The notes under the pieces are model-generated. The model saw nothing but the letters and a program-made list of their open reading frames with translations, did not search any database and had not been told where the DNA came from. The position numbers and the translations under genes are program-made. Positions 5,640-21,503 of a stretch of DNA of 39,899 nucleotides are shown here, piece after piece (position 1 is the stretch's first letter; each line of letters begins with the position of its first letter). The stretch is from assembly GCF_025291715.1 (NCBI RefSeq), contig NZ_JAMBIZ010000034.1, positions 1 through 39,899 of the forward strand, in the 5' to 3' direction. This stretch comes from Metasolibacillus sp. (lineage in GTDB: Bacteria; Bacillota; Bacilli; Bacillales_A; Planococcaceae).

Positions 5640-5667
5640 GCTCAGTTAGGCTACATACCTTTCATGA

Positions 5668-5676: not shown

Positions 5677-5702
5677 ACAATTGATTGAAAGAGGTGGGGA
5701 AA

Positions 5703-6602: not shown

Positions 6603-6604
6603 TA

Positions 6605-6647
6605 AAGAAGCTGCACTGTAGGCAATTGCTTACAGGCAGCTTCTTTT
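6605..6647 (+). terminator. Terminator of the LD-carboxypeptidase gene
   Basis: An 8-bp outer stem GAAGCTGC/GCAGCTTC (6607-6614 with 6636-6643) and an inner CTGTA/TACAG stem are followed by TTTT. Confidence 0.85.
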
Positions 6648-6822
6648 CGTAGTGAGCGTTTGATGTTAAATTATCAAGTTTGTTTGTCCTATTACTCATT
6701 TAGTTGGTAATTGGTAATCGGTAACATAATAACGGGTAACTTGTTATTGGTTTGCGTTTAGTTATCGCTAAAAGATTGAAAACGCTCATTACAACTTGGC
6801 TTGGAGTCTCACCGCACCAAGA

Positions 6823-7329
6823 TTAGAAATACATAGAGTCATCAAAGTCGATTTGCACTTGATAGTTTTTCGCATTGATTGCATTTGAGAGGCGGTGTGC
6901 TTGCTTTTCCAGCTCAATTGCACGCACTCGATATTCCTCAGGGTTAAAAAGAGCGACATTATATAAAATCGTTTCCCCTATGCTATGCATATAGCTTTCT
7001 TTTTCAGAAATGCCAAATGTCTTTGCTTGCCCAGCTTCAGCGCGGAGCTGTGTTGCAAGCTCAATCGCTTCAACGATAGCAAGCTTTTCTCCATTAAACT
7101 CAATAAAGTGATCAATATTTGCGCGGTAAATTAAGCGATCAAGCGTACGTGAATCTTTTCTGACTACAGCTAAATCTGCTTCGACTTGCTGCATTGTGCG
7201 TCCCTGTGCTTTTGGTTCTTCCCCTTTTTCTATAACCGTGAAGGAAACAGTGGAGAGCTCGATAGAAAGGTCACTAATTTTTTGTCTTAAAATGCTTTTT
7301 AATTTAATTGCTTCCGCTAATGAAATCAT
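6823..7329 (-). CDS. DIP1984/septicolysin-like family protein (DUF6847-type)
   Basis: 168 aa, almost entirely helical. It has the pattern of the DIP1984 family: LxEAIxLKxxL at the start, a central LDRLIYRAN, NGEKLAIVEAIELATQLR, and a C-terminal LEKQAHRLSNAINAKNYQVQIDF. No signal peptide or membrane segment. RBS AGAGGTGC precedes ATG 7329. The first 26 bp overlap the end of the upstream B3/B4 gene, so the two are one operon and probably coupled. Some members have been called septicolysin, but no haemolytic role can be inferred here. Confidence 0.7.
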   Translation of the reverse strand: MISLAEAIKLKSILRQKISDLSIELSTVSFTVIEKGEEPKAQGRTMQQVEADLAVVRKDSRTLDRLIYRANIDHFIEFNGEKLAIVEAIELATQLRAEAGQAKTFGISEKESYMHSIGETILYNVALFNPEEYRVRAIELEKQAHRLSNAINAKNYQVQIDFDDSMYF

Positions 7330-8011
7330 TTAATGGCACCTCTTTTGTTGTATTTGACAGCAAGGCGATAGAGAAATCGCCACCATTGACTTGTGTGAAC
7401 ATTTTGCCAACGGCTGCTAGCAATTCCTTACAATTATCTTCAGATTGAGATGGACGTAAATACAGGATCTGCAAGGCAGATGTTGTTTGCTCTGTTACAG
7501 CTGTGCGTTGTGAATCAACGAAGGGACTGCCAAATGCTCCAAGCTCATCATCTGTATATAAAATATTTTTAAGTGAGTTATAACGTCCGTTTAAGCCTTC
7601 ATAGCCTGTTTCCTCATCGCCAAGAGCTATTTCAATATCGCCTTGTAGCTTGTCCATGTCGTAAATTCCAATAGGTACTTCATATTGCAATGAGAAGAAA
7701 TTATTTAAATCGACTGCTGAATGGAACGGTGTTAAATAATTTTGCTTGGCAATGCGGCGCATTAAGCTTTCGGCTGAATGACGATAGCGATTAGGGTCTG
7801 CCCCAAGCGTCTTCCAAAGCTTACGCCATTCGGCAATCCCTGCTCGTTCTGTCACAGGAGTTTCCTGCATTTCCAAAAATAAATTTTCCTGATAAAGCTG
7901 TATGCGACCTTTAATCATTTGAGGAGAATCTGACACGACAATTTTGTTATAATAAATAATGCCGATTTTTAAATTATATGTAGAAAGTGAATCGCGCAAT
8001 GCAATTTTCAT
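7304..8011 (-). CDS. B3/B4 (tRNA-editing-like) domain protein
   Basis: 235 aa. The body matches free-standing B3/B4 domains, the fold that proof-reads mischarged tRNA in the PheRS beta subunit: WRKLWKTLGADPNRYRHS, LMRRI, and the NYLTPFHSAVDLNNFFSLQYEVPIGIYD segment, then a C-terminal ELLAAVGKMF region. RBS AGGTGATTTT precedes ATG 8011. First gene of a two-gene operon with the DIP1984-like gene, divergent from queG. A role in trans-editing of misacylated tRNA or in binding amino-acid-like ligands is plausible but unproven for such proteins. Confidence 0.8.
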   Translation of the reverse strand: MKIALRDSLSTYNLKIGIIYYNKIVVSDSPQMIKGRIQLYQENLFLEMQETPVTERAGIAEWRKLWKTLGADPNRYRHSAESLMRRIAKQNYLTPFHSAVDLNNFFSLQYEVPIGIYDMDKLQGDIEIALGDEETGYEGLNGRYNSLKNILYTDDELGAFGSPFVDSQRTAVTEQTTSALQILYLRPSQSEDNCKELLAAVGKMFTQVNGGDFSIALLSNTTKEVPLNDFISGSN

Positions 8012-8070
8012 AAAATCACCTGCTTATTAAGAGTAGATATTATTATAGCAATAAGGAGAGAAAAAGGAAA

Positions 8071-9210
8071 ATGAATGTCACTGATTTACAGACAGAGCTT
8101 ATTTTGTATGCAAAATCAATCGGTGTCGATAAAATTGGATTTACAACAGCCTCTCCGTTTATCGAATTAAAAAATCGTTTGCGTCGCCAGCAAGAATTAG
8201 GCTATCAATCTGGCTTTGAAGAGTCCGATATTGAGAAAAGAACAGAGCCGTTGCAATTGTTAGACCAAGCAGAAAGCATTATTGCAATTGCTCTTGCCTA
8301 TCCTTCTAAAATGCAAGATGCCCCTTTAGGGAAAAAGGGGGAGCGACGCGGTATTTTTTGTCGTGCTTCTTGGGGAGTGGATTATCATGTTGCCGTACGT
8401 GAGCGTTTGCAGTTAATTGAGGCATGGCTATGTGAGCGTGTACCAGATGTTAAAATAAAATCAATGGTTGATACAGGAGAGCTGTCAGACCGTGCAGTAG
8501 CAGAGCGTGCAGGCATCGGCTGGAGCGCTAAAAATTGTTCTATTATTACGCCAGAGTTTGGCTCTTATGTTTATTTAGGTGAGCTAATTACAAACATTCC
8601 ATTTGCACCAGACCAGCCAATGGAGGACGAATGTGGTGAGTGCAGACTTTGCATTGATGTATGCCCAACAGGTGCTATTGTGGAGGGAGGGCAATTAAAT
8701 GCACAGCGCTGCATCGCCTTTTTAACACAGACAAAAGGCTTTTTACCTGATGAGTTTCGTGGGAAAATTGGCAATCGTCTATATGGCTGTGATACATGCC
8801 AGACAGTTTGCCCGAAAAATAAAGGCAAGGTGAATTGGATTCATGAGGAATTTATGCCTGATCCAGAGTTAGCAAAGCCTTTGTTAGAGCCACTATTAAC
8901 GATTTCAAACAAGGAATTTAAAACGAAATTTGGACATGTTTCTGGCTCATGGCGTGGTAAAAAGCCTATTCAGCGCAATGCCATTTTAGCGCTAGCTCAT
9001 TTTAAGGAGCAGCAGGCGGTGCCAAAGCTATTAGCAGTTATGAACAAGGATGAGCGCCCCGTTATTCGCGGAACTGCCGCATGGGCGCTTGGAAAAATTG
9101 GTGGACAAGGTGTCAAAGAAGCGTTGCTAGCAGCAAAAGAGCGTGAGCAAGATGCAGAAGTGCTAGCTGAAATCGACAAAGGGCTAGCATTATTAGTAGA
9201 AATTGAGTGA
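8071..9210 (+). CDS. queG: Epoxyqueuosine reductase
   Basis: 379 aa. Reduces epoxyqueuosine to queuosine at the wobble position of GUN-anticodon tRNAs, using cobalamin and two [4Fe-4S] clusters. Seen: catalytic Asp D134 in SMVDTGELSDRA, AGIGWSAKN (151-155), cluster ligands C188-x2-C-x2-C-x3-C198, and C240-x2-C-x3-C247 in the second cluster motif. The C-terminal HEAT-like helices (about 295-375) are typical of the Bacillus form. Start ATG 8071 with an AAAAAGG RBS. Ends 15 bp before trmL, so both form a tRNA-modification operon. Confidence 0.94.
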   Translation: MNVTDLQTELILYAKSIGVDKIGFTTASPFIELKNRLRRQQELGYQSGFEESDIEKRTEPLQLLDQAESIIAIALAYPSKMQDAPLGKKGERRGIFCRASWGVDYHVAVRERLQLIEAWLCERVPDVKIKSMVDTGELSDRAVAERAGIGWSAKNCSIITPEFGSYVYLGELITNIPFAPDQPMEDECGECRLCIDVCPTGAIVEGGQLNAQRCIAFLTQTKGFLPDEFRGKIGNRLYGCDTCQTVCPKNKGKVNWIHEEFMPDPELAKPLLEPLLTISNKEFKTKFGHVSGSWRGKKPIQRNAILALAHFKEQQAVPKLLAVMNKDERPVIRGTAAWALGKIGGQGVKEALLAAKEREQDAEVLAEIDKGLALLVEIE

Positions 9211-9225
9211 GAGAAGGGTTTATTT

Positions 9226-9699
9226 ATGCCATTGCATATTGTTTTATATCAGCCAGAAATTCCAGCAAATACAGGAAATATTGCACGTACATGTGCTGGG
9301 ACGAATACGAGCTTACATTTAATTCGTCCGTTAGGCTTTTCAACAGATGATAAAATGCTGAAGCGAGCTGGTCTTGATTATTGGGAGCACGTTCATGTCG
9401 TGTATCACGATTCATTAGAGGATTTTATCGCTTATAGCGAGGGCGGCGATGTCTATTTAATTGAAACATACAGTGATGAGCCGTTTACAACGCATGATTT
9501 TAGTGACAGTGAGCGCAATATTTATTTCATGTTTGGTAAGGAAACGACAGGTTTGCCGAAGGATTTTGCTTATGAGCGTCGAGATATGTGCTTACGCATT
9601 CCACAGAGCGACCATATTCGTTCGCTGAATTTATCGAATACGGCGGCGATTGTTATTTATGAGGCATTAAGGCAACAAGGATATCCAGGGCTGAAATAA
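9226..9699 (+). CDS. trmL: tRNA (cytidine/uridine-34 2'-O)-methyltransferase
   Basis: 157 aa SPOUT enzyme. Transfers methyl from AdoMet to the ribose of the wobble base of tRNA-Leu CAA and UAA. Seen: N-terminal QPEIPANTGNIARTCA, the FGKETTGLP loop (about 105-113) and the knotted C-terminus IRSLNLSNTAAIVIYEALRQ. Length is standard for the family. Follows queG in one transcript. Its stop is followed at once by a 21-bp-period repeat array and then a terminator. The substrate tRNA-Leu(CAA) is encoded at 88-169. Confidence 0.93.
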   Translation: MPLHIVLYQPEIPANTGNIARTCAGTNTSLHLIRPLGFSTDDKMLKRAGLDYWEHVHVVYHDSLEDFIAYSEGGDVYLIETYSDEPFTTHDFSDSERNIYFMFGKETTGLPKDFAYERRDMCLRIPQSDHIRSLNLSNTAAIVIYEALRQQGYPGLK

Positions 9700-9704
9700 A
9701 GAAA

Positions 9705-9786
9705 AACGCAGATAAGTCATCGGAATTCGCAGATAATTTGAGAGAAAGCGCAGATAAGTTACGAAAATTCGCAGATAAACAATCAA
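9705..9786 (+). repeat. 21-bp-period CGCAGATAA array in the trmL 3'-UTR
   Basis: Four copies of CGCAGATAA start at 9707, 9728, 9749 and 9770, exactly 21 bp apart. A degenerate fifth copy may follow near 9790. The 12-bp linkers vary, but alternate copies are preceded by AATT or by an A/G-rich stretch, suggesting a 42-bp double unit. The array starts 8 bp after the trmL stop and ends before the terminator at 9812, so it is transcribed. It resembles the array at 19332. Confidence 0.85.
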
Positions 9787-9811
9787 AATGCAAAGTCATT
9801 TGTGAGAAGTT

Positions 9812-9846
9812 AAATAGCATCTCCTTTATGGAGGTGCTATTTCTTT
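9812..9846 (+). terminator. Terminator of the queG-trmL operon
   Basis: A 13-bp stem (9812-9824 with 9830-9842, one G-U pair) with a 5-nt loop is followed by TCTTT. The following base overlaps the first operator repeat of the two-component promoter. Confidence 0.85.
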
Positions 9847-9878
9847 GACATCTAGCTGACATCATAGCGTGTTACAGT
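9845..9878 (+). promoter_or_regulatory. Direct-repeat operator and promoter of the two-component operon
   Basis: TGACATC occurs at 9846-9852 and 9857-9863, 11 bp apart. A -10-like TACAGT (9873-9878) starts 16 bp after the start of the second repeat. There is no normal 17-bp-spaced -35. The layout is that of an OmpR/PhoB-type box overlapping the -35 region. The same arrangement recurs at 11990-12022, so the response regulator encoded next probably activates both promoters. Confidence 0.65.
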
Positions 9879-9896
9879 AACGGGAGAGGTGAGAAC

Positions 9897-10583
9897 ATGA
9901 CAAAAATACTTGTAGTGGAAGACGAATTTGCGATTAGTCAGGTGCTGAAGGTCTATTTAGAGAAGGTTGGTTATCAAGTTGTGCAATGCTATAATGGCGG
10001 ACAGGCTCTAGCATTATTTAACGAGCATCAGCCAAATTTAGTATTGCTTGATATTATGCTGCCTGATAAAAATGGCTGGTCAATTTTGCAGGAAATTCGT
10101 CAGCAAAGTAGCTGTCCTGTTATAATGCTGACAGCCTTAGGCGAGGTACAAGATCGTTTAGCCGGCTTTGATAAAGGGGCGGATGATTATATTGTGAAGC
10201 CCTTTGTGGCAGATGAGATGATTGCAAGAGTGAAGGCGGTATTACGACGTTCGCAAGGCAATGAGCAATCAACCTTTATGAAGCGCTTTGGGCAGCTTGA
10301 AATTGATATGAGGGCACACACAGTTACATTGCATGGACAGGAGGTTGTATTAACACCGAGAGATTTATCTGTTCTGCTTTTTTTGGCAGAGTATCCGAAT
10401 CAAACGTTTACAAGAGATCAGTTAATCGAGCATGTATGGGGCTGGGAATATGATGGCAGTGACCGTGCTGTCGATTTAGCTATTAAACGATTACGCAAGG
10501 CATTGACTGATTGGGATGTAGCGGAAGGTGAAATTAGGACGTTGCGAGGATTGGGGTATCAGCTAAGTGTTGCAAAAAAATAA
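9897..10583 (+). CDS. OmpR/PhoB-family response regulator
   Basis: 228 aa. Receiver domain at 1-120 with acidic residues near E8/D9, phosphoacceptor D52 (LLDIMLPD), T79 and K101 (YIVKPF). A winged-helix DNA-binding domain covers about 130-225 (LTPRDLSVLLFL, VDLAIKRLRKAL, TLRGLGYQL). RBS GGGAGAGGTGAG precedes ATG 9897. The stop overlaps the start of the kinase gene by 17 bp. Its likely targets are its own promoter and the VTC promoter, which share a direct repeat. The signal is unknown. Confidence 0.92.
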   Translation: MTKILVVEDEFAISQVLKVYLEKVGYQVVQCYNGGQALALFNEHQPNLVLLDIMLPDKNGWSILQEIRQQSSCPVIMLTALGEVQDRLAGFDKGADDYIVKPFVADEMIARVKAVLRRSQGNEQSTFMKRFGQLEIDMRAHTVTLHGQEVVLTPRDLSVLLFLAEYPNQTFTRDQLIEHVWGWEYDGSDRAVDLAIKRLRKALTDWDVAEGEIRTLRGLGYQLSVAKK

Positions 10584-11955
10584 AAAAACGACGTTGCTAC
10601 GTTATTGGACAAGCCGCTATTTGGCAACATTGCTTATAGGACTAGCGATTATTTTCCTTCTTTCAGCAAGCTGGATTCGCCATACAGCCTTTACGAACCG
10701 CATTGAAATGATGACATTTTTAGCAGAGGAAACGGTTTATCGGCTGACAGACACAACGGATAAAATGCCAAACTTTATCGATGAGCGAGGGCGGCTGCAA
10801 ATGCGTGAAATTGATCCAATTTTATATATAGCGGATGCAGATGGGAATATTTTAACAAGCAACCGGCCGATGCCACCAGACAGTATAAAAAATGTGGCGA
10901 CATGGTTAGAGGGCGATAAAGAATATACAAAAGTATCCTTGATGCCACAGGGTGAGCATTATCTTGTCAAAAAGCCAATTTATGTGGATGAAGCGCTATA
11001 TGGATGGGTGCTTGTATTAGAGGACGAGCGTCATTTAACACAGGTGAATCAAGCATATGGGCAGCTCGCTTTATTGATAGGTGCCTTAGCAGTGCTTGGT
11101 TGGGGAGCGATTTATTTTTTATCAAGGCGTTTAGCAGCACCGATTAAGCAAGTAGCAGATGCAGCGAAGCAAATTCAAGGTGGCAATTATGATGTGTATT
11201 TACCTGAAAATAATAAGGAACAAGAGGTTGATGAGCTTGTGACATCGTTTAAGGAGATGGCAACGAAGCTAGAGCAGCTAGAAAAAACGCGTACCGAATT
11301 ATTGGCAGGGGTGACGCATGAATTGAAAACACCTGTAACATCGATTAGCGGCTTATTACAAGCAGTGAACGATGGTGTTGTAACAGGAGATGAGGCACAA
11401 GCCTTTATCCAAATGGCCTTACAGGAAACAACGAAAATGAAAACGATGGTTGGCGATTTGCTCGCATTTAACCGTTTTGCGGTTGATGCGCTGCCTGTTC
11501 ATATTGAAACAATTTATATGAATGAGATTGTACGAAATATAGTACAGCAATGGGAGCTATTGCATGAGAAGCAACAGCTTGTGGTACATTATCTTGAGCC
11601 TGATGCTGAGATACAGGGGGATGTAGTGCGTTTACAGCAAATATTAACGAATTTATTGACGAATGCTGAGCAAGCAATTGAGCAGCAAGGAACGATTACA
11701 ATAACAATTGAGCAAGAGGAAAAGCGTGTCATTATGACAATTCAGGATACGGGAAAAGGCATTTTACCAGAGGATCAGCCATTTATTTTTGAGCGCTTTT
11801 ACCGAGGGGAAAATAAAAAGTACGCGGTGCGTGGCTTAGGATTAGGTCTGTCACTAAGCAAAATGATGGCACAATCCATCGGTGGTGATTTGCAATTGAT
11901 TAACAGCAGCGAGGCTGGAACAAGCTTCGAAATAACTTTGGTGAAAGCAGTATGA
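10567..11955 (+). CDS. Sensor histidine kinase (HAMP, HisKA, HATPase)
   Basis: 462 aa. TM1 about 18-36, an extracytoplasmic sensor of about 130 residues (38-165) with no recognised fold name, TM2 about 166-186, HAMP about 187-242, HisKA with H251 in the VTHELKTP motif, and HATPase with N box (LLTNAEQAI), DTGKGI and GLGLGLSL. Starts at GTG 10567 inside the regulator gene with only a weak G-rich RBS; coupling to the upstream gene is likely. Cognate partner of the adjacent regulator. Confidence 0.9.
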   Translation: MLQKNKKTTLLRYWTSRYLATLLIGLAIIFLLSASWIRHTAFTNRIEMMTFLAEETVYRLTDTTDKMPNFIDERGRLQMREIDPILYIADADGNILTSNRPMPPDSIKNVATWLEGDKEYTKVSLMPQGEHYLVKKPIYVDEALYGWVLVLEDERHLTQVNQAYGQLALLIGALAVLGWGAIYFLSRRLAAPIKQVADAAKQIQGGNYDVYLPENNKEQEVDELVTSFKEMATKLEQLEKTRTELLAGVTHELKTPVTSISGLLQAVNDGVVTGDEAQAFIQMALQETTKMKTMVGDLLAFNRFAVDALPVHIETIYMNEIVRNIVQQWELLHEKQQLVVHYLEPDAEIQGDVVRLQQILTNLLTNAEQAIEQQGTITITIEQEEKRVIMTIQDTGKGILPEDQPFIFERFYRGENKKYAVRGLGLGLSLSKMMAQSIGGDLQLINSSEAGTSFEITLVKAV

Positions 11956-11986
11956 GAGTGCGAAAAATTTTTCGCACTCTTTTTTG
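11955..11986 (+). terminator. Terminator after the kinase gene
   Basis: A 26-base perfect palindrome (11955-11980) with a G+C-rich outer stem is followed by seven T. It separates the two-component transcript from the VTC transcript, which has its own promoter just downstream. Confidence 0.85.
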
Positions 11987-11988
11987 TG

Positions 11989-12022
11989 CTGACATCTGCC
12001 TGACACATTGGATGCTTATAGT
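11989..12022 (+). promoter_or_regulatory. Direct-repeat operator and promoter of the VTC operon
   Basis: TGACATC (11990-11996) and TGACACA (12001-12007) are 11 bp apart, and TATAGT (12017-12022) begins 16 bp after the second repeat starts. Copy sequence, repeat spacing and distance to -10 match the promoter at 9845-9878. This indicates co-regulation by the same response regulator. Confidence 0.68.
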
Positions 12023-12047
12023 AAGAGTTGTAAAGGGAGTGAGCACA

Positions 12048-12728
12048 ATGAAAAATGGTAGAAAAGAGATTAAACATGCTATTTCTTATCCGCAGTACAT
12101 GATGATGAAAAGCAAGCTTGCACATGTTATGCAGCTTGATGCACATGCGAATGCAAACGGAAAATATTTAATCCGTAGCACGTACTTTGATAATTTTTCA
12201 AATAAAGCGTTAAACGAAAAAAAGGAAGGCTATTTGCATCGTGATAAGTATCGGGTACGCATTTATGACAAGGCAGCGACGACAGTTTACTTAGAACGCA
12301 AAAGCAAGCGCCACAATATGACGTTTAAAACAAAATGTCTAATGACGAAAGCGGAATATGAAAAAATGCGGCGCAGTGAGCTAGAGTGGATGGAAAAAGA
12401 TGAGCGGGCATTAATCCGCGATTTATATGAACAGATGATGTATCAGCAATTAAAGCCTGTGACGGTTGTTGATTATGAGCGAGAGGCGTATGTCTATCCA
12501 TTCGGCAATGTACGTGTAACCTTTGATAGCAAAATTCAGACGAGTGTGCGCAATAATGATATGTTTCAGCCGTATTTGCCAATGGTCGATGTGCTTGAGC
12601 CAAATATGCTGGTGCTGGAAGTGAAGTATGATGAGTATTTACCAGATATTATTAAATATTTACTGCAATCAGTAGATACACATGCCGAAGCCTATTCCAA
12701 ATATCAATTAAGCCGTATGTTCGGCTAA
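12048..12728 (+). CDS. VTC-domain protein (candidate polyphosphate polymerase)
   Basis: 226 aa, soluble. Single VTC domain, the catalytic fold of yeast Vtc4, which makes polyphosphate from ATP in a tunnel lined by basic residues. Visible family residues: RKEIKH (K9), R65/R69/R71 in HRDKYRVRIY, LERKSK (E83, R84, K85), VDYEREAY, VRVTFD, LVLEVKYD (E191, K193) and SKY (K218). No SPX domain and no membrane segment, unlike eukaryotic VTC. ATG 12048 has an AAGGGAGTGAG RBS; longer in-frame starts lie inside the upstream terminator. It is 14 bp upstream of the DUF4956 gene. Polymerase activity is inferred from the residues only. Confidence 0.85.
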   Translation: MKNGRKEIKHAISYPQYMMMKSKLAHVMQLDAHANANGKYLIRSTYFDNFSNKALNEKKEGYLHRDKYRVRIYDKAATTVYLERKSKRHNMTFKTKCLMTKAEYEKMRRSELEWMEKDERALIRDLYEQMMYQQLKPVTVVDYEREAYVYPFGNVRVTFDSKIQTSVRNNDMFQPYLPMVDVLEPNMLVLEVKYDEYLPDIIKYLLQSVDTHAEAYSKYQLSRMFG

Positions 12729-12742
12729 AAAAGGAGAGATTT

Positions 12743-13429
12743 ATGATGGATACAACGAATTTTACAGATATTTTTAAATCAAGCTTTCTTGAGAAAACAA
12801 CATCCTTTTCTTTGACAGATTCATTGATTGGATTAGTTGTTGCATTTTTTGTTGGGTTGTTTATTTATGCGGTGTATAAAAAAACATTCAACGGCATTAT
12901 TTATTCACATTCCTTTAATATTTCGCTATTGATTATGACGATGGCAACGGCACTAGTCATTATGGGGATTAGCTCAAATGTCTTGTTATCTCTAGGGATG
13001 GTTGGGGCATTATCAATTGTTCGTTTCCGTACACCAATTAAAGACCCGATGGATTTAGTATATATTTTCTGGGCAATTGTTTCAGGTATTTTGTGTGGTG
13101 CAGGCTTTATTCCACTTGTTATTGTCGGTGCGATTTTAATCGGCTTAGTGTTAGTCGTATTTGTCAATAAAATGACGATTGAAAATCCTTATTTGCTTGT
13201 CGTGAAATTTGAACAAGCAGCAGTGAATGAAGAGCTAGAGCAGTTAATGGCAAAGTATTCGAAAAAGTATGCGTTAAAATCAAAATCAATCATGCAAGGT
13301 AGCGATATTGAGGCAACATATGAGGTACGTATGAAATCAGGTGATGCACAATTAATGGAGGCTGTTGCGCAATTAAATGGTGTGAAATCAGCAATTATGC
13401 TGAGCTATGATGGCAATTTTACGGCTTAG
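12743..13429 (+). CDS. DUF4956 membrane protein
   Basis: 228 aa. Four predicted membrane helices (about 25-43, 53-75, 77-86 continuing near 100-118, and 120-142) surround the family hallmark SLGMVGALSIVRFRTPIKDP (about 82-101). A soluble C-terminal domain of about 80 residues (150-228) follows. DUF4956 genes recur next to VTC-domain genes. A role in anchoring the polymerase or passing its product through the membrane is inferred, not shown. RBS AAAGGAG lies before ATG 12743. The stop is followed by a 21-bp-period array. Confidence 0.85.
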   Translation: MMDTTNFTDIFKSSFLEKTTSFSLTDSLIGLVVAFFVGLFIYAVYKKTFNGIIYSHSFNISLLIMTMATALVIMGISSNVLLSLGMVGALSIVRFRTPIKDPMDLVYIFWAIVSGILCGAGFIPLVIVGAILIGLVLVVFVNKMTIENPYLLVVKFEQAAVNEELEQLMAKYSKKYALKSKSIMQGSDIEATYEVRMKSGDAQLMEAVAQLNGVKSAIMLSYDGNFTA

Positions 13430-13446
13430 CTTGTTTAAAAGTGGTG

Positions 13447-13501
13447 ATTCGCTCAACGACATGCAATTTTCGCTCAACAAACAGGGAAATTCGCTCATCC
13501 A
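13447..13501 (+). repeat. 21-bp-period CGCTCA array after the DUF4956 gene
   Basis: Three copies: CGCTCAAC at 13450 and 13471 and CGCTCATCC at 13492, exactly 21 bp apart and each preceded by TT. The array begins about 18 bp after the DUF4956 stop, in the same orientation relative to the gene as the other arrays. The second array of this sub-family is at 22299. Confidence 0.8.
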
Positions 13502-13513
13502 AAATATAAATCA

Positions 13514-13540
13514 GGGGTTGTCTGGAAAAGGGACAATCCC
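13514..13540 (+). other. Hairpin between DUF4956 and cotH genes
   Basis: A 9-bp stem (13514-13522 with 13532-13540, one G-U pair) with a 9-nt loop. It lacks a U-tract, so it is not a standard terminator. It may stabilise or process the mRNA and allow partial read-through into the cotH-like gene. Confidence 0.45.
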
Positions 13541-13558
13541 AATCAAGGGGGATACAGC

Positions 13559-15355
13559 ATGATAAAATCACGTGTGGTCTATTTATGTATGGCAACTTTA
13601 TTGCTGCTCTTTATTGTGATGGTTGCCATTATACCAAACATCGGTATTCAAACGACAAATGCGGCATTTTCCTATGAGGAGCTTGTCTTTAACCAAAGCA
13701 AAGTAACAACGGTTGATATTGAAATCTCTGAAGAGGATTGGCAGAGTATGCTTGAAAATGCTGTAGCAGAGGAGTATAAAGAAGCAACTGTCACAGTGAA
13801 CGGTAAGCGAATGGAGCATGTCGCCATTCGCACAAAGGGCAATTTAACCTTGAACTCAGTAGTTAATAGTGATTCAGACCGCTATAGCTTTAAAATCGAC
13901 TTCGATTATTATGATAATGAACAGAGCTTATATGGTTTAACAAAGCTTAATTTGAACAATAATTATAGCGATACAACATTAATGAGGGAATACATTTCTT
14001 ATGAAATCATGGAGGAAATAGGGCTGCCAACACCAGCACATTCCTATATGTACATTACAGTCAATGGTCAAGACCAAGGCTTATATTTAGGTGTGGAGCA
14101 GGTGGATGAAACGTTTCTTGCTAACAACTTTGGCTCTAACGATGGTTTTTTATATAAACCAGATGGCGTAGGTAGTGATTTAAAATATATTAGTGATGAT
14201 CTAAGTGATTATACAGGTATTGATTTAAAAACAAATGAAGCGAATGCAGAAAGCTCTAAATGGGTTGAGATGGTAAAGGCACTTAGCGAAGGTGGAGACC
14301 TTGAGCAATATTTAGATGTTGATGAAATATTAAGATATTTCGCAGTCAATACCGCTTTAGTTAACCTTGATAGCTATCAAAGTAATTTAAAGCACAATTA
14401 CTACTTGTATGAGGAAAATGGTGTTTTTTCTATTATTCCATGGGATTATAATATGTCCTTTGGTGGTTTTAGCATGGGAATGGGTGGTGGTAATATGCCA
14501 CAGCCAACCGAAGATGCTGATATGTCCAATGCAAATGGCATAGGGAGATGGGGCAATATGCCATTACAAAATGAGGATGCTGACATGTCAAAAGATGGTG
14601 CGAACATGCAACGAGGAAATAGAATGGGCATGGATATGATGGGACAATCAACAGATTTATTAGCAGAAGAAGCCGTTAATTTTAGTATTTATACACCTGT
14701 ATCAGGCATCTCATTAGAAGAGCGTCCATTATTAAATACGTTACTTTCGAATGATGAATATCTAGCTATATATGAAGGCTACCTAGAGGAAGTTGCGACA
14801 ACATATTTAACAGAACAGTATGTGCAAAATATAACGAATAATTTAGCTGCATTGCTGACAACATATGTGGAAGCTGATCCGACAAAATTTTCTACAACAG
14901 AGCAGTTTTTAGAAGCTGTAAAAGGCGAAAAAAGCTTACCTGAATTTGCTAAACAACGCTCAGCATCTATTTTAAAGCAGTTATCAGGTGAGCTTGTAAT
15001 AGAAGCAAGCACAACATCAAGCAATGAAGGTTTTCCAGAGCGCTTTCAAAATGGGGAAATGAATGGGCAACCTCCTGCTAATTGGAATGAAGATGAAATG
15101 GAGCTACCAGCCAATAGAGAGGAGGGGCAGCAAGGAGCATTTGGACAGCCACCAGCTAATTGGAATGGAGATCAAATGCAACCGCCGAATCGAGAGGGTG
15201 GACAAAGGATGCCAAATGGAGCTAACGAATCCACAAATAATACGGCAATGCTCGTTATAGGCGCTGTCACCTTGATTCTTTTAATTGCTGCTACAATCTT
15301 TGTTTTTAAATTTAATCGTAGAGGTAGTAAGAAAAAACGGCTGCTCGAATTTTGA
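13559..15355 (+). CDS. CotH-family protein kinase-like, extracytoplasmic
   Basis: 598 aa. N-terminal signal sequence (hydrophobic about 8-27, possible cleavage near TNA-AF). CotH kinase body about 45-460 with RTKGNLTLNS, GLTKLNLNNNYSD, GLYLGVEQVDE and the metal-binding IPWDYN (about 293-298). Near the C-terminus lie an anchor helix (about 563-582) and a KFNRRGSKKKR tail, so the kinase domain should face outside. A Met/Gly/Asp-rich insert (about 303-365) carries two NMP...EDADMS repeats, and a Pro/Gly/Asn-rich stalk carries two GQPPANWN repeats (about 502-550). CotH proteins are atypical kinases of spore-coat proteins. GGGGG RBS before ATG 13559. Likely co-transcribed with VTC and DUF4956 genes. 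Confidence 0.85.
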   Translation: MIKSRVVYLCMATLLLLFIVMVAIIPNIGIQTTNAAFSYEELVFNQSKVTTVDIEISEEDWQSMLENAVAEEYKEATVTVNGKRMEHVAIRTKGNLTLNSVVNSDSDRYSFKIDFDYYDNEQSLYGLTKLNLNNNYSDTTLMREYISYEIMEEIGLPTPAHSYMYITVNGQDQGLYLGVEQVDETFLANNFGSNDGFLYKPDGVGSDLKYISDDLSDYTGIDLKTNEANAESSKWVEMVKALSEGGDLEQYLDVDEILRYFAVNTALVNLDSYQSNLKHNYYLYEENGVFSIIPWDYNMSFGGFSMGMGGGNMPQPTEDADMSNANGIGRWGNMPLQNEDADMSKDGANMQRGNRMGMDMMGQSTDLLAEEAVNFSIYTPVSGISLEERPLLNTLLSNDEYLAIYEGYLEEVATTYLTEQYVQNITNNLAALLTTYVEADPTKFSTTEQFLEAVKGEKSLPEFAKQRSASILKQLSGELVIEASTTSSNEGFPERFQNGEMNGQPPANWNEDEMELPANREEGQQGAFGQPPANWNGDQMQPPNREGGQRMPNGANESTNNTAMLVIGAVTLILLIAATIFVFKFNRRGSKKKRLLEF

Positions 15356-15369
15356 GCAGCCATTTTCGT
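15339..15369. terminator. Bidirectional terminator between cotH-like gene and spo0M
   Basis: An 8-bp stem GGCTGCTC/GAGCAGCC (15339-15346 with 15354-15361) has T-rich sequence on both sides. It overlaps the cotH-like stop codon and lies just before the spo0M stop. Confidence 0.85.
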
Positions 15370-16134
15370 TTACATATGCTTATTAATTGCCTGTTGTAGT
15401 TTTGCTGAAATCGAATCACCTTCGGAAATAGTTAGGCGGACAAAGCTTTCATCCATATCTAAGGCTTCTGATAAAAGGCTAGCTAATCCTCGAACTTTAC
15501 GGTCTACTTGCAATAAAATTTCCGCTGAACGCTCTGTTTGAGAGAGGAATACTAATTCTAATTCATCTAAGCGTCCACGATACGTATTAGCTGTTGGCAC
15601 AAACTCAAACTCTTGCAAAAACGGATAGCTTTGTCGATAACGTGCAGGAGCAGCTTCGCAATCTACTTTACGCAAATGAAAGCCGAGCTGTTGCACCTCA
15701 TGTATAATTTCAGTAGCAAGTGGTGTTGGCTTAATTTCAATATAATCTTTATCAGTTGGGTCAACAGCCGCCTTGATATCTAGCCCAGTCTGAATCCAGA
15801 CACGCGTCTGTCCCAATGTAACTGGCACATCTGTTGGTAGGATGAAGGAAAATGGAATGCTATGAAACTCATTTGCTCGAATTGTAAAAGCCTCGTTTAG
15901 CTTCATACTTTTTAAAACTGCAGTTTCATTGCGTTTCGAGTCATTTACTTCTTTTAAATAATTTGCACATAAATTTAAATAAATTGTATCAATTTGTTGT
16001 TCTGCATTGCCGCCTCTAATTTCAACAATACCACTTACTACATCACCCACATTGTATGTTGTATACTGTAGCTTTGTATCAACAGTGGCAGAACCAATCC
16101 CAACACTCGCTAAAACTTTGTTAAAAAAAGACAT
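15370..16134 (-). CDS. spo0M: Sporulation-control protein Spo0M
   Basis: 254 aa, close to the usual length. Arrestin-like two-domain beta protein found across Bacillales. Begins MSFFNKVLASVGIGSATVDTKL and has the typical YNVGDVVSGIVEIRGG, FILPTDVPVTLGQTRVWIQTGLDIK (about 108-132), and a FEFVP segment. In B. subtilis it influences early sporulation and cell morphology. A GGAGG-type RBS lies upstream at about 16142-16147. Monocistronic, sharing its terminator with the convergent cotH-like gene. Confidence 0.93.
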   Translation of the reverse strand: MSFFNKVLASVGIGSATVDTKLQYTTYNVGDVVSGIVEIRGGNAEQQIDTIYLNLCANYLKEVNDSKRNETAVLKSMKLNEAFTIRANEFHSIPFSFILPTDVPVTLGQTRVWIQTGLDIKAAVDPTDKDYIEIKPTPLATEIIHEVQQLGFHLRKVDCEAAPARYRQSYPFLQEFEFVPTANTYRGRLDELELVFLSQTERSAEILLQVDRKVRGLASLLSEALDMDESFVRLTISEGDSISAKLQQAINKHM

Positions 16135-16234
16135 ATAAAAATCCTCCTATGTTGTATTGATTTTCATACGTTTTATAAAAGAAAAAGGTTTCACAATTTT
16201 TCACAGCAATATTTTCATGCAGCCTGTCTATATA

Positions 16235-17251
16235 TTATTTTAAATCAATTGCCATCTCAGGCATTACTGGACCAACTTTATTATCTCCCGCACCCTTACT
16301 ATAGAAAATTTCAGGTGTGATAAATAGTGTAGTCGCTTCTGGAGGTAGTTGGTCAATTGAAAAGCTCCAATGCATTGTAGCTGTTTCGATATTGCCTTGT
16401 CCTCCATTACCTTGTGCTTCGTAAACATTCCCTAAATTATCGCGTACTTTTTTAATTGTAATGGAAGCCCATGGCCATTCTTCCATCGTATTTTTATCAA
16501 GCTGTTGTGTATAATGCACGATGGTAGATAAAGCATTTTGCTCAATTGAATTGATGATGACTTGAACACCATCAACCTCTTGCTCCACATGTACCTTTTT
16601 CACATCATTTTCTAGTTTCGGTAGCTTAAATTCGAAGGACCAATCTCCTTTATAGACAACACCCGACTCTGCTTGAATATCAGTAGGATGCCAGCTGACT
16701 AAAACTTCTTCTGGTGCAACACCCTCAAAAAATGGTGTGATTTTCATGACACCAACATAGGTGTTTGCGTCAATTCTCTCAAGCGACATTCCTCCACCAG
16801 CTCCTGTAGCTGATTGAATATCAATGTTGGCAGAACCGTTAATAAAGTGTAGCTCACCTAAATTTTTTTCTGATTCAATCGCATAGGTCAGTGTGACAGA
16901 TGTACCATCAAATATTGCATTTTCAATCATTATCGAAATACCATCACTTGTTTGCATTTGCTCAACAATCGTCGCTAAGTCGCTATAGTTATTATGAATA
17001 AAATATTTATCTGTATATTCCACAATATTTTTCATAAAAGGTATTTGTGCTGCAAAGGATGGGAATGTCAATGGTGTGACAATCGTTCCACCGAGTAATA
17101 TAGCAGCAATTATTGCATATTTACGCCAAGCTGCACGCTTCTTTTTTTGACCAAGCACATACTTTGTTAGTCGCTTTTTTTCTAGTTCATCAACAGCCAT
17201 AGGCTCAAGTTCATCAATATTTAAGTTTGCGAATTTTTTGTAGTCGCTCAT
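16235..17251 (-). CDS. DUF4179-domain anti-sigma factor (probable)
   Basis: 338 aa. A cytoplasmic N-terminus (1-40), one membrane helix (about 45-65, YAIIAAILLGGTIVTPLTF) and an extracytoplasmic part starting with the DUF4179 pattern (FMKNIVEYTDKYF..., TYAIESEKNLGE), then a beta-rich DUF5643-like C-terminal region. Proteins of this build sit next to ECF sigma factors and sequester them at the membrane. ATG 17251 overlaps the sigma stop by 4 bp (ATGA), with AAAGGAGATG as RBS. Single-pass topology fits signal transduction from the envelope. Confidence 0.85.
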   Translation of the reverse strand: MSDYKKFANLNIDELEPMAVDELEKKRLTKYVLGQKKKRAAWRKYAIIAAILLGGTIVTPLTFPSFAAQIPFMKNIVEYTDKYFIHNNYSDLATIVEQMQTSDGISIMIENAIFDGTSVTLTYAIESEKNLGELHFINGSANIDIQSATGAGGGMSLERIDANTYVGVMKITPFFEGVAPEEVLVSWHPTDIQAESGVVYKGDWSFEFKLPKLENDVKKVHVEQEVDGVQVIINSIEQNALSTIVHYTQQLDKNTMEEWPWASITIKKVRDNLGNVYEAQGNGGQGNIETATMHWSFSIDQLPPEATTLFITPEIFYSKGAGDNKVGPVMPEMAIDLK

Positions 17252-17802
17252 ATAAACATCTCCTTTAATTGTGGGGATTCGGCTAATTTTTTTTTGCCGC
17301 GGTATAGGCGGTTATCCACAGCCGCTTTCGTTAAGGATAAGGCATCCGCAATTTCACTATTGGACATTTCTAAAAAATATTTCATTGTAAAAATATCGCC
17401 ATCAGGTGGCTCTAGTTGGCTAATGTGAAGGAGCATTGTGTTTTTTTGCTCCTGCTTTAAAATTGTTTGCTCGCTGTTACTATTATGTTGCTCGTAGCAG
17501 TCAACGAGCTCAGCCGCCCGCATATTTTGCTTGTCTAATGCACGGTAATAATCAATCGCTTTATATTTTGTAATGGTACCAAGCCAGCGCTTGAAGTCAG
17601 CAGGCTCTCCTTGAAACTTCTCGGCATTTTGCCATACATCTAAAAATACATCATTAATGCATTCATCAATCGCGCTTTGCTTGCCGATTGGTGCTAAAAT
17701 TTTGAAGGCAATTGCTTTTACAAATGGTAAGTATTCATCGATGATGTATTCAAGCGCGTCCTCTTTTTGTTTTTTCAAACGTTTTATAAATTTATGCTGC
17801 AT
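17248..17802 (-). CDS. ECF-type sigma factor
   Basis: 184 aa. Region 2 about 20-90 (AIAFKIL, DECINDVFLDVWQNAEKF, FKRWLGTITKYKAIDYYR) and region 4 about 120-175 (FTMKYFLEMSNSEIADALSLTKAAVDNRLYRGKKKL). No N-terminal region 1. ATG 17802 is preferred over TTG 17808 because AAGGAG lies 8 bp upstream of the ATG. Co-transcribed with its probable anti-sigma. I could not find a convincing ECF autoregulatory promoter in the 100 bp upstream. Confidence 0.9.
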   Translation of the reverse strand: MQHKFIKRLKKQKEDALEYIIDEYLPFVKAIAFKILAPIGKQSAIDECINDVFLDVWQNAEKFQGEPADFKRWLGTITKYKAIDYYRALDKQNMRAAELVDCYEQHNSNSEQTILKQEQKNTMLLHISQLEPPDGDIFTMKYFLEMSNSEIADALSLTKAAVDNRLYRGKKKLAESPQLKEMFI

Positions 17803-17880
17803 AAACAAAACTCCTTATCTTTTTAGAAAAAGCTTTTTCATTAATTACAACGAAATGAGCGAGGGATTATTCTCAACAAA

Positions 17881-17908
17881 AAAACTGCTCCAAAATTGGA
17901 ACAGTTTT
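17881..17908 (-). terminator. Terminator of the catE-like gene
   Basis: The stem AAAACTG/CAGTTTT plus inner TCCA/TGGA is followed on the minus strand by a long T-run. It overlaps the stop codon of the dioxygenase-like gene and protects the downstream sigma gene from read-through. Confidence 0.8.
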
Positions 17909-18782
17909 AAATCGTAAACAGGATGCGGATTCCATTCGGGTCTTCCACTGAAAAAATTTGTGTGCCACCATGAAGTGGAGCGTGTTCATATTGCTCTATA
18001 TTGAAGCCTGCTGCTATTAAGTTATTTTGAATTTGCTGTGCCACTTCCTCATTTTCCAAAACAACGGTAAATGATTGTAGTCCGACCTGCTGTGATGAAG
18101 GCTTGCTGCCATTTGCGCTATGCCAAGTATTTAAGCCGATATGATGATGGTAATTGCCTGTTGAAATAAAGAGCGCCTGCTTTCCATAGCGAGCGACAAC
18201 ATTGTAATTAAGCACGTTTGTGTAAAATTGCTCTGATTGTGCGATATCTGCAACAGATAGATGAATATGTCCAATCATCGTACCTTGTGGAAGGCCATTC
18301 CAGCCACCATCAGCTTCTGCTAAAATCGAATTGAAGTTTAGCTGCTCTGTGTACATTGTGACATTGTCATTCTGCCATTGCCAGCTACTTGCAGGACGAT
18401 CTACATAAATCTCAATCCCATTGCCATCAGGGTCATTTAAATACAGTGCTTCACTGACCCCATGGTCTGCTGCACCGAGGCGGATATTGTGCTGAACAAA
18501 ATGCTGTACGATATTGCCTAAATCTTTCCGGCTCGGCAGCAATAGTGCAATATGATACAAGCCTGTTAAGCCATCATGTAATGGCAGGGCATTGTCTACT
18601 TTTATTAAGGATAAAAAGCTTGTTGTGCCATCAACTGTTAAATAAGCTGTTTGCTCATCCTGCTGTAAAATTTGAAAGCCAATAATTGTTGTGTAATATT
18701 CAAGTGAACGTTGTAAATCAGCCACTTTTAGCTGTACATGTGATGTATACATATTCGGTTTTTGATGAAAGTTTATAGTCAT
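17907..18782 (-). CDS. catE: Catechol-2,3-dioxygenase-like VOC protein (CatE/YfiE type)
   Basis: 291 aa, two VOC modules (about 12-130 and 168-291). The N-terminal module has H15, H77 and E124 (NGIEIYVDRP). The C-terminal module has H172 (GHIHLSV) and the YHHHIGLNTWH motif, but the place where the third, Glu, ligand is expected reads DPNGIRI. Length and sequence pattern match the Bacillus CatE group, which cleaves catechols at C2-C3 and is induced by thiol-reactive quinones through CatR. A symmetric candidate operator lies upstream at 18822-18842. Monocistronic. Substrate specificity is not certain. Confidence 0.8.
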   Translation of the reverse strand: MTINFHQKPNMYTSHVQLKVADLQRSLEYYTTIIGFQILQQDEQTAYLTVDGTTSFLSLIKVDNALPLHDGLTGLYHIALLLPSRKDLGNIVQHFVQHNIRLGAADHGVSEALYLNDPDGNGIEIYVDRPASSWQWQNDNVTMYTEQLNFNSILAEADGGWNGLPQGTMIGHIHLSVADIAQSEQFYTNVLNYNVVARYGKQALFISTGNYHHHIGLNTWHSANGSKPSSQQVGLQSFTVVLENEEVAQQIQNNLIAAGFNIEQYEHAPLHGGTQIFSVEDPNGIRILFTI

Positions 18783-18821
18783 ATAGATGCTCCTTATAGA
18801 TTGGACTGTATATCAAATTTA

Positions 18822-18842
18822 ACATATTCCTCGTGAATATGT
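18822..18842. promoter_or_regulatory. Candidate operator upstream of catE
   Basis: A perfect 8-bp inverted repeat, ACATATTC and GAATATGT, with a 5-bp spacer. It is 40-60 bp upstream of the catE-like start and near a -10-like TATACA on the minus strand, so it would overlap the promoter. A dimeric repressor site is likely; MarR/DUF24-type (CatR, YodB) is a guess from the gene. Confidence 0.5.
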
Positions 18843-18868
18843 ACGTGAATTGACTTATCTTTATATAC

Positions 18869-18898
18869 AAAAAAACACCCGTACAGTCCGAGTGTTTT
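18869..18898 (-). terminator. Terminator of the 31-aa membrane peptide gene
   Basis: A 10-bp stem (18872-18881 with 18889-18898; one U-G pair on the minus strand) with a T-run on the minus-strand side. Confidence 0.75.
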
Positions 18899-18926
18899 GT
18901 AGTAGTTGCCTAATTAGGCGTAAAGA

Positions 18927-19022
18927 TTAGTCTTTTTTAGCGAATGGTTTGCCTTCGTAACCACCAGTGAAGATTGCAGTTAAGAATGCTACACAAATGC
19001 CAAGAATTAATAATAATTTCAT
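18927..19022 (-). CDS. 31-aa single-pass membrane peptide
   Basis: A 31-residue ORF: MKLLLILGICVAFLTAIFTG then a short tail GYEGKPFAKKD. One hydrophobic helix covers residues 2-19, with a charged C-terminus. It has an excellent RBS (GAGGAGGA, about 8 bp before ATG 19022) and its own terminator at 18869-18898, so it is a genuine short gene that length cut-offs miss. A longer in-frame version starting upstream has no RBS. Function unknown. Confidence 0.75.
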   Translation of the reverse strand: MKLLLILGICVAFLTAIFTGGYEGKPFAKKD

Positions 19023-19161
19023 GGAAGTATCCTCCTCATGTATATAAACTCTTTTATTAGTATAGCTTATAAGTAGTAACTTTACTATGGTTATTTTGTG
19101 TCTAAATAGGTTAAACTTATGCATTTTCGGGAATAGAAAAGAAAAAAGGAGGGGGCTTAAA

Positions 19162-19326
19162 ATGGAGATAAATAAGAAGCAGCCAACAAGCGGGCATATG
19201 GTGAACGATATGGAGGATTTAAAGCAGTTAGGTAAGCAAATGGAAAATATGCGAGATGGTCAACAGCTAGAGGAGGATGACCGCATCGTAGATCCACAGC
19301 AATTTGATAAATTAGACGAGAAGTGA
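19162..19326 (+). CDS. 54-aa acidic small protein
   Basis: MEINKKQPTSGHMVNDMEDL followed by a Gln/Met/Asp-rich helix and a DRIVDPQQFDKLDEK tail. No membrane segment, no Cys. RBS AAAGGAGGGGG lies just upstream of ATG 19162; the longer in-frame ORF from 19087 lacks a good RBS. The stop is followed at once by a 21-bp-period repeat array and a terminator. Function not recognised. Confidence 0.7.
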   Translation: MEINKKQPTSGHMVNDMEDLKQLGKQMENMRDGQQLEEDDRIVDPQQFDKLDEK

Positions 19327-19328
19327 AA

Positions 19329-19424
19329 ATTCGCAAATATATATGAGAATTTCGCAGATATGTCATGAAAAAACGCAGATATAATTTGAAATTCGCAAAT
19401 ATATTTAAAAAAACGCAGATATAT
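19329..19424 (+). repeat. 20-21-bp-period CGCAGATAT array in the 3'-UTR of the 54-aa gene
   Basis: Five copies of CGCAGATAT or CGCAAATAT start at 19332, 19353, 19374, 19394 and 19414 (steps 21, 21, 20, 20). Copies alternate between an AATTTCGC and an AAAACGC lead-in. The array begins right after the stop codon at 19326 and ends before the terminator at 19432. Same sub-family and orientation as the trmL array. Confidence 0.85.
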
Positions 19425-19431
19425 TCTATTT

Positions 19432-19472
19432 AGTCATTTGGATTTCATTCCATTGAAATTCAAATGGCTTTT
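19432..19472 (+). terminator. Terminator after the 54-aa gene and its array
   Basis: A 13-bp stem (19434-19446 with 19455-19467; G-U pairs included) with an 8-nt loop is followed by CTTTT. Confidence 0.75.
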
Positions 19473-19508
19473 CGGTGTGTAAGGTTCGTCTCTCGAAAGA
19501 ATTCGGTA

Positions 19509-19514
19509 TATAAT
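19509..19514 (+). promoter_or_regulatory. -10 element of the aldo/keto reductase operon
   Basis: A perfect TATAAT lies 21 bp before the first reductase start codon. No good -35 is seen at 16-18 bp, so only the -10 is supported. Confidence 0.4.
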
Positions 19515-19534
19515 AAAATAAAGGGGGTATAAAA

Positions 19535-20365
19535 ATGCAATTGCAAAGTACAAAAAAATTAGCTAACGGTGTAGAAATGCCAATTTTAGGTTTAGGTGTC
19601 TACAAAATGACAGACCGCGATGAAACGCTTGCTGCTATTACGAAGGCACTACAAGTAGGCTATCGCGCAGTGGATACCGCTGCACTTTACTACAATGAAG
19701 CTGAAGTAGGTGAAGCGATTCGTCACTCTGGCGTGCCGCGCGAAGAAATCTTCGTTACGACAAAGGTTTGGAATTCGGATCAAGGCTATGACAACACATT
19801 ACGAGCCTTTGAAACATCGTTGAAGAAATTAAATATGGACTATGTCGATTTATATTTAACACATTGGCCTGTGGCAGATAAATTCGTTGATACATATCGG
19901 GCAATTGAGCGCCTTTACGACGAAAAGCTAATTCGTGTGCCAGGCGTATCGAATCATCATCAACACCATTTAGAGCAGCTTCTTGCAAGCGCAAATATTG
20001 CGCCAGTAGTCAATCAAGTAGAAGTGCATCCATATTTATCACAGCAAGCTTTGCGTGCATTTTGTGCCGAGCAGCATATTGCAGTAACAGCATGGTCGCC
20101 GTTAGGGCGTGGTGGCGTGCTAACAGATGAAACGATTCAGCAAATTGCTGAGAAATATGGCAAATCATCAGCACAAGTTGTGCTACGTTGGCATTTACAG
20201 CACGACATACTTATCATTCCGAAATCAGTAAAGGCACAGCGCATTGAAGAAAATGCACAAATTTTTGATTTTGAATTAACGGCACAAGATATGCAAACGC
20301 TTGACGCATTAAATCAAAATAAACGCTTTGGGCAAGACCCAGACAATTTTAAATTTGATTTCTAA
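19535..20365 (+). CDS. Aldo/keto reductase, copy 1
   Basis: 276 aa NADPH-dependent (beta/alpha)8 oxidoreductase of AKR family 5 type. Catalytic tetrad D47, Y52 (AVDTAALYYN), K77 (TTKVW) and H110 (LTHWP). The cofactor-binding end is IPKSVKAQRIEENAQIFDF. Reduces aldehydes or ketones; substrate unknown. RBS AAAGGGGG before ATG 19535. A near-identical paralogue follows 14 bp downstream. Both carry VPGVSNHH where most relatives read AIGVSNF. A 73-bp stretch of this gene (19901-19973) is almost identical to the paralogue. Confidence 0.92.
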   Translation: MQLQSTKKLANGVEMPILGLGVYKMTDRDETLAAITKALQVGYRAVDTAALYYNEAEVGEAIRHSGVPREEIFVTTKVWNSDQGYDNTLRAFETSLKKLNMDYVDLYLTHWPVADKFVDTYRAIERLYDEKLIRVPGVSNHHQHHLEQLLASANIAPVVNQVEVHPYLSQQALRAFCAEQHIAVTAWSPLGRGGVLTDETIQQIAEKYGKSSAQVVLRWHLQHDILIIPKSVKAQRIEENAQIFDFELTAQDMQTLDALNQNKRFGQDPDNFKFDF

Positions 20366-20379
20366 GGGGGAACTTATTT

Positions 20380-21201: not shown

Positions 21202-21256
21202 TTGTGAAATGTGCCAAAAGGGAAACAAACTATGATAAAATATGAATGTATATCGA

Positions 21257-21262
21257 TATAAT
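21257..21262 (+). promoter_or_regulatory. -10 element of the 74-aa gene
   Basis: TATAAT two bases upstream of the RBS GGGAGGA. This would give a transcript start inside or just after the RBS, so it may be coincidental; no good -35 is visible. Confidence 0.2.
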
Positions 21263-21277
21263 AGGGAGGACTTTCCA

Positions 21278-21502: not shown

Positions 21503-21503
21503 A

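Follow-up and report, generated by a model that had tools for sequence, protein, structure and literature searches.

Do the genes for a polyphosphate-polymerase-like protein, a membrane protein and a surface kinase that stand side by side in a Metasolibacillus sp. form a system of their own, and what would such a system make? The locus lies on contig NZ_JAMBIZ010000034.1 (assembly GCF_025291715.1), whose 39,899 nucleotides are here called the window. It consists of open reading frames for a VTC-domain protein (12048-12728), a DUF4956 membrane protein (12743-13429) and a CotH-type kinase (13559-15355), all found where a first-pass annotation had located them, with genes for a response regulator and a histidine kinase upstream on the same (plus) strand. 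The three genes form, we are very confident, a functional module that has a two-component regulon to itself. The best explanation of the whole, a surface-polymer module switched by that two-component system, is in our estimation evenly balanced between right and wrong.

Linkage and regulation of the trio

VTC and DUF4956 were found together in 125 of the 261 genomes of the order (VTC in 127, DUF4956 in 126), and DUF4956 was lacking in 133 of the 134 genomes without VTC (Fisher p 7e-72, without correction for kinship). Among 14 control genomes, the three that had VTC were also the three that had DUF4956 (Bacteroides ihuae, Corynebacterium glutamicum and Methanosarcina acetivorans), and CotH was found in two of these three and in Bacillus subtilis. 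Gene order was compared across 165 distinct loci: the order contributed 100 VTC genes and the named set 72, with the seven contigs common to both counted once. The 100 regions fetched from the order comprise 99 VTC places, hand-picked with window-like ones favoured, and one DUF4956-only region. The named loci are the best 80 of at least 579 confirmed relatives and are biased to close kin because the best 80 were taken; eight had no VTC frame in the simple gene caller, leaving the 72 counted. Named hosts include Lysinibacillus, Virgibacillus, Planococcus, Paenibacillus, Clostridium, Clostridioides, Acetobacterium, Lachnospiraceae and Atopobiaceae.

In 160 of the 165 loci VTC is directly followed by a same-strand DUF4956 gene. 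The full order VTC-DUF4956-CotH is uninterrupted on one strand in 70 of them, none Pel-linked and 54 with the regulator pair beside the trio. CotH stands within three genes of VTC in 95/165 loci and a Cthe_2159-type gene (Pfam PF14262) within four genes in another 43/165; the two were never found together (0/165; Fisher p 2e-21, again not corrected for kinship). The co-occurrence of the three genes that the first-pass annotation had supposed is thus borne out by these loci and by the pairing of VTC and DUF4956 in 125 of the 127 VTC genomes. On a quick VTC tree (171 rows, many weak forks, seven duplicate rows; the 135-aa L119 excluded) the CotH/Cthe_2159 state switches at least nine times, and this exchange speaks for a third gene that acts at the surface on a product common to both versions, as an effector and not as a core enzyme. 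At L096 and L124, distant-clade VTC proteins adjoin the regulator pair, TTTAAGG repeats and a Cthe_2159 gene; here the polymerase gene itself seems to have been exchanged.

The seven duplicate contigs, excluded from the 165-locus counts, remain in the counts for the tree, the CotH scan, the distant-gene control and the upstream repeats. The CotH profile used for the CotH scan, the tree and the upstream-repeat counts included three PelG-only proteins; the 165-locus count uses a clean profile, under which one locus loses its CotH label. The profile overlooks at least one leucine-rich-repeat CotH neighbour (L103), and the CotH of L091 is spore-coat-sized and may not belong with the module at all.

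The response regulator (9897-10583) is of OmpR/PhoB type (Pfam Response_reg 4.1e-29, Trans_reg_C 1.7e-22), and the histidine kinase (10567-11955) carries HAMP, HisKA and HATPase_c domains. Such a pair lies within four genes of VTC in 93/165 distinct loci and near distant genes of the same stretches in 0/142, a control that is weak because few neighbours are left around distant genes. A terminator-like stem-loop of 12 pairs with a T tail (11954-11981) parts the kinase gene from VTC, so that VTC, DUF4956 and CotH are probably a transcription unit of their own; a second terminator-like stem-loop (15339-15361) marks the end of cotH. The unit also has its own promoter-like stretch, consisting of the direct repeat TGACATCTGCCTGACA (11990-12005), retained before VTC or PrsA-like genes in relatives, and the -10-like element TATAGT (12017-12022), which stands, unchanged or in similar form, at equal distance in many relatives. 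The ATG at 12048 was adopted as the VTC start, the longest open frame starting at 11952. A direct repeat of 11-bp period, a putative regulator site, thus stands 5' of both the VTC unit and the regulator gene, where it reads TGACATCTAGCTGACA (9846-9861) with the response-regulator ATG 35 bp downstream.

In a scan of 100 fetched regions and window positions 3001-22000 (1.67 Mb), TGACA-N6-TGACA had 45 exact matches against 2.3 in mononucleotide shuffles. All but one stand 5' of cluster genes: VTC (18), the regulator (15) and the PrsA-like foldase gene (11). A dedicated regulon is likely in view of these 44/45 placements. With up to one mismatch, TTTAAGG-N4-TTTAAGG had 43 matches against 1.7 in shuffles, with 20 placed 5' of VTC, 17 of Cthe_2159 and 6 elsewhere. 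The VTC counts are partly circular because the repeats were first spotted by eye 5' of VTC in 18 loci; the scan was the first sight of the sites upstream of Cthe_2159, the PrsA-like gene and the regulator. At looser cut-offs, 53 of 59 regulator-linked order loci and 1 of 40 others have a repeat 5' of the VTC unit, against 1/99 (order) and 0/72 (named) shuffled upstream regions. With one mismatch allowed, the motif shows no enrichment in the window by itself (5 found, 3 expected); it is exact matching and conservation that give the signal its strength, among loci that share descent. Binding of the regulator at the repeats is suggested by their position and form. Both the linkage and the conserved repeats support the dedicated regulator of the first-pass annotation.

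The organism's own genome has five TGACAYNNNNYTGACA matches, two in this locus. A genome-wide regulon there was considered and rejected: of the three further matches, the two examined (L220 and L229) lie inside long opposite-strand frames, and the third is C33. Some relatives have a repeat site upstream of an acyltransferase-3 gene (L213, L227) or of a gene whose product looks secreted and has no clear family (L215, L226). NCBIfam gave no indication of the histidine kinase's signal, the best 25 matches listed all being below cut-off.

The three proteins and their likely activities

The 226-aa VTC protein has the triphosphate tunnel metalloenzyme (TTM) fold. As the first-pass annotation held, it lacks SPX, the VTC domain being its only Pfam match (1.6e-37; 129.7 bits, cut-off 23); the yeast complex's own membrane domain was likewise unmatched. 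Its predicted model (pLDDT 92) has VTC proteins as nearest solved folds, Vtc4 chains scoring TM 0.59-0.75 and non-VTC TTM enzymes at most 0.56. A single-sequence search matched no PDB chain, and a profile from 27 relatives matched yeast Vtc4 (3g3q, E 5.1e-12). The basic catalytic set described as apparently complete is invariant in all 56 sequences of alignment A5, where R5, K9, R65, K67, R69, R71, K85, K94, R145, R156, E191, K193, S217 and K218 do not vary. In the profile alignment, from whose chain positions the Vtc4 numbering is derived, K9 pairs with K200, R69/R71 with R264/R266, K85 with K281, K94 with K294, R145 with R361, R156 with R373, E191 with E426 and S217/K218 with S457/K458. We take the aligned Vtc4 positions other than R264, R266, E426 and K458 to be catalytic as well. 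For these four, whose equivalents R69, R71, E191 and K218 are invariant in A5, the accessible text of two papers reports that R264, R266 and E426 are the residues mutated to inactivate Vtc4 (PMC9911596) and names K458 as catalytic (PMC4641920). At positions of the hydrolase acidic patch (mapping by motif spacing), R5 and K193 carry a basic side chain, as Vtc4 does, and E7 an acidic one; the equivalent of the patch's Glu-90 is perhaps K94 by inferred placement. Judged by sequence and model, the bacterial VTC protein probably makes polyphosphate.

The DUF4956 protein (Pfam 6.8e-11) was first read as a four-helix protein, which its model corrects to five hydrophobic helices (24-48, 56-75, 78-94, 102-120 and 123-143) followed by a C-terminal ACT-like domain of strand-helix-strand-strand-helix-strand order (149-221). 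The fold matches listed are ACT and ferredoxin-like domains, including the C-domain of M. tuberculosis MgtC (2lqj, rank 19, E 2.2e-3). Profile similarity to MgtC at E<=1 is found in 56 of 63 DUF4956 members (best 3e-4), and the window protein scores 14.8 bits against Pfam MgtC, under the cut-off of 31.4. The motif SLGMVGALSIVRFR (83-96) is invariant across the 63 sequences of alignment A4, and its G85, S91, R94, F95 and R96 stay so in the wider A2 (n=27, distant-clade members included). No credible solved relative was found by sequence, the fold matches listed covering the ACT-like domain, and the DUF4956 profile matched no Vtc chain among PDB sequences. A Streptococcus homologue is described as MgtC-like with an ACT domain in the accessible part of PMC12345266, whose discussion ties MgtC proteins to phosphate and ATP homeostasis.

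No VTC-DUF4956 fusion was noticed among the fetched loci. The sole long DUF4956 frame (L118:7551-8573, 340 aa) joins a receiver domain in frame to DUF4956, its genome having no VTC match, and looks like the deletion scar of a regulator-kinase-VTC-DUF4956 order.

The CotH protein scores 217.9 bits in Pfam (3.2e-64) and matches spore-coat CotH (5jd9, E 7.2e-20). The first-pass annotation gave it a signal peptide and a C-terminal anchor, hence a kinase facing outside. A hydropathy scan recovered hydrophobic stretches of export type (1-19) and anchor type (558-576); calling the first a signal peptide is a reading by eye. Both stretches are present in 69 of 89 CotH proteins unfused to PelG by the same simple scan. 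Of 104 alignment rows, 101 retain D271 and D296 and 97 retain N280, three gapped rows being stray PelG tails; we presume that these three are the catalytic residues. Met/Gly-rich segments were observed in both CotH and Cthe_2159 proteins, with up to 11 Met per 40 residues in one CotH, and copper binding was considered.

Pel clusters and the competing readings

The three families have been met together before. Among the Pel accessory genes given in the available text of PMC7112168 are cotH, DUF4956 and a polyphosphate polymerase gene, and the available text of PMC11677781 gives a Clostridium perfringens locus in which polyphosphate-polymerase-domain and CotH genes occur with sigma and anti-sigma factor genes. 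The first-pass annotation's claim that no described bacterial system joins the families with a dedicated two-component regulator is wrong as to the families themselves, which are joined at Pel (PMC7112168 and PMC12345266, both as far as accessible); no description of a Pel-free trio with a two-component system was found in a literature search that left most subscription papers outside. Pel as the context of the window trio is ruled out, the genome (83 contigs, completeness 100) having no PelG match. PelG exceeds the cut-off in 24 of the 261 genomes (three more are weak), all 24 with VTC, and is lacking in 103 of the 127 VTC genomes of the order, this one included. The 15 fetched Pel-linked loci form one clade on the VTC tree and usually run PelD/E-like, deacetylase, PelF, PelG, CotH, VTC, DUF4956 (the PelD/E labels rest on position and size, with no Pfam match). 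Neither the regulator pair (0/15) nor the repeat (0/15) was found near them. PelG lies within a frame of more than 1000 aa in 18 of the 24 PelG genomes, and the one checked by Pfam is PelG plus CotH. In L074:4888-7980 and similar Pel-cluster loci the PelG-CotH fusion (~1030 aa) places the kinase domain at the exporter.

For the window, we propose that the dedicated two-component system would turn on a surface-polymer module. Fold and residues strongly suggest that VTC would polymerise phosphate from ATP on the cytoplasmic side. Its near-obligate partner DUF4956 could plausibly gate the enzyme through its ACT-like domain in place of SPX, and a DUF4956 oligomer could plausibly pass the polyphosphate chain outward. 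A surface protein, in this locus a CotH kinase and at others a Cthe_2159-type protein, might conceivably handle the product or what the product decorates. Export of the polymer with DUF4956 is a tentative step that we lean slightly against, and action of CotH with the polymer is doubtful. In its most specific form, the proposal is polyphosphate secretion analogous to that by yeast VTC: cytoplasmic VTC would thread the polymer through a DUF4956 channel to an exterior poor in ATP, and there the anchored CotH would modify surface proteins or glycans with the polymer as its phosphoryl donor. Cthe_2159 versions would instead capture the polyanion at the surface, and in Pel species it would pair with the cationic polysaccharide. 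All of these parts together are unlikely to hold.

Several observations weigh against the surface-polymer explanation. In the window VTC, Vtc4 R253 is replaced by Lys (K58) and K455 is lost (alignment read by counting), both of which we assume to line the tunnel. Position E7 is Glu as in TTM hydrolases, Thr in Vtc4; with a Vtc4-like fold, Vtc4-like residues and basic R5 and K193, yet this acidic E7, polymerase activity is likely but not proved. The DUF4956 model is moderate (pTM 0.60), with no fold match for the transmembrane part among those listed. In the named loci the repeat and the regulator are loosely linked (17/40 regulator-linked against 11/32 others), and CotH, Cthe_2159 and Pel are all lacking nearby in 27/165 loci. 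The host genome also encodes PPK1 and PPK2, which rules out VTC as its sole polyphosphate enzyme; their presence also speaks for a dedicated pool. The accessible literature yielded no demonstration of polyphosphate from a bacterial VTC protein. The strongest result on this side comes from Streptococcus intermedius, whose VTC deletion (SIR_1593) still aggregates and makes Pel according to the accessible part of PMC12345266. Deleting DUF4956 raised Pel there and deleting CotH lowered it, and either deletion more than halved aggregation in one medium; DUF4956 and CotH may therefore have a polymerase-independent job.

Such phenotypes, altered in the DUF4956 and CotH deletions and not in the VTC deletion (PMC12345266, in part), are what would be expected if DUF4956 and CotH tuned an exported glycan and VTC were a phosphate- or ATP-linked regulator of DUF4956 instead of a polymer source. 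The long PelG-CotH frames, the description of Cthe_2159 as carbohydrate-binding and the acyltransferase-3 gene behind the same promoter repeat agree with this control of exopolysaccharide or envelope. We consider it rather unlikely, since the window's genome has no PelG, Pel genes were found near 0 of the 72 named VTC genes, and the equivalents of Vtc4 R264, R266, E426 and K458 that VTC retains would be needless for a mere regulator.

The polymer could also stay inside: VTC and membrane-bound DUF4956 would make cytoplasmic polyphosphate under envelope stress, and CotH would be co-regulated and phosphorylate surface proteins. The absence of a Pfam-matched membrane domain in VTC and the tie of MgtC proteins to phosphate and ATP homeostasis are in keeping with such a pool. 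PPK1 and PPK2 are already there to serve it, however, and the near-obligate membrane partner and the surface third gene speak against it, making it quite improbable. Very improbable in our view is a VTC that works as a TTM hydrolase or another triphosphate enzyme in place of a polymerase. Proteins of the TTM fold have many activities (PMC8233210 and PMC4641920, as far as accessible) and E7 retains one Glu of the hydrolase acidic patch, but R5 and K193 are basic at acidic-patch positions, as in Vtc4, and Vtc4 is the best fold match.

Neighbouring features and comparison with known systems

Intergenic arrays of TTCGCTCA-N13 with a 21-bp period were observed at window 13448-13497, between DUF4956 and cotH, and at 22300-22391. 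With up to one mismatch there are 49 pair matches genome-wide, against 0 for a reversed control, and the arrays belong to a dispersed repeat family; similar CGCAGATA-type arrays stand at 9728-9778 and 19324-19425. On the minus strand (16235-18782), near VTC/DUF4956, are a sigma-factor gene, a DUF4179-domain neighbour and a glyoxalase-like gene, which are also found near VTC/DUF4956 in the distant-clade loci L091, L093 and L098. A SUFU-domain gene, small frames and a DUF4253 gene stand in a row at 2581-5639, an arrangement that to our mind resembles a polymorphic-toxin immunity array.

The occurrence of the trio outside Pel, as a self-regulated module of many Bacillota, contradicts PMC12345266 (2025), whose authors, in its accessible text, failed to find it in synteny outside Pel. 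It offers a small testable system for two questions: do VTC proteins of bacteria synthesise polyphosphate and carry it across a membrane, and which donor and substrate serve an exported CotH kinase?

Compared with the eukaryotic VTC complex (Vtc4/Vtc1/Vtc2-3), the TTM polymerase fold and key catalytic residues are shared; the bacterial VTC has no SPX and no fused transmembrane part, a separate membrane part is proposed, and it would be placed at the cell membrane. Spore-coat CotH (5jd9) shares the kinase domain, with D271, N280 and D296 inside the aligned region, whereas the window CotH is ~600 aa, has export and anchor stretches and adjoins VTC/DUF4956. DUF4956 shares weak profile similarity and the C-terminal ACT-like fold with the MgtC/SapB family, but falls under the MgtC cut-off and has its own invariant motif. 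PPK1 and PPK2, polyphosphate enzymes of the same genome, belong to different families and are encoded on other contigs. The Pel accessory group of Streptococcus, Clostridium and Bifidobacterium has the same three families, also contiguous. In the accessible text of PMC7112168 and PMC12345266 it is contiguous with pelDEADAFG, and the window trio is not; the window module instead has an OmpR/histidine-kinase pair with conserved repeats, includes a PrsA-like gene in some relatives, and can have its CotH replaced by Cthe_2159.

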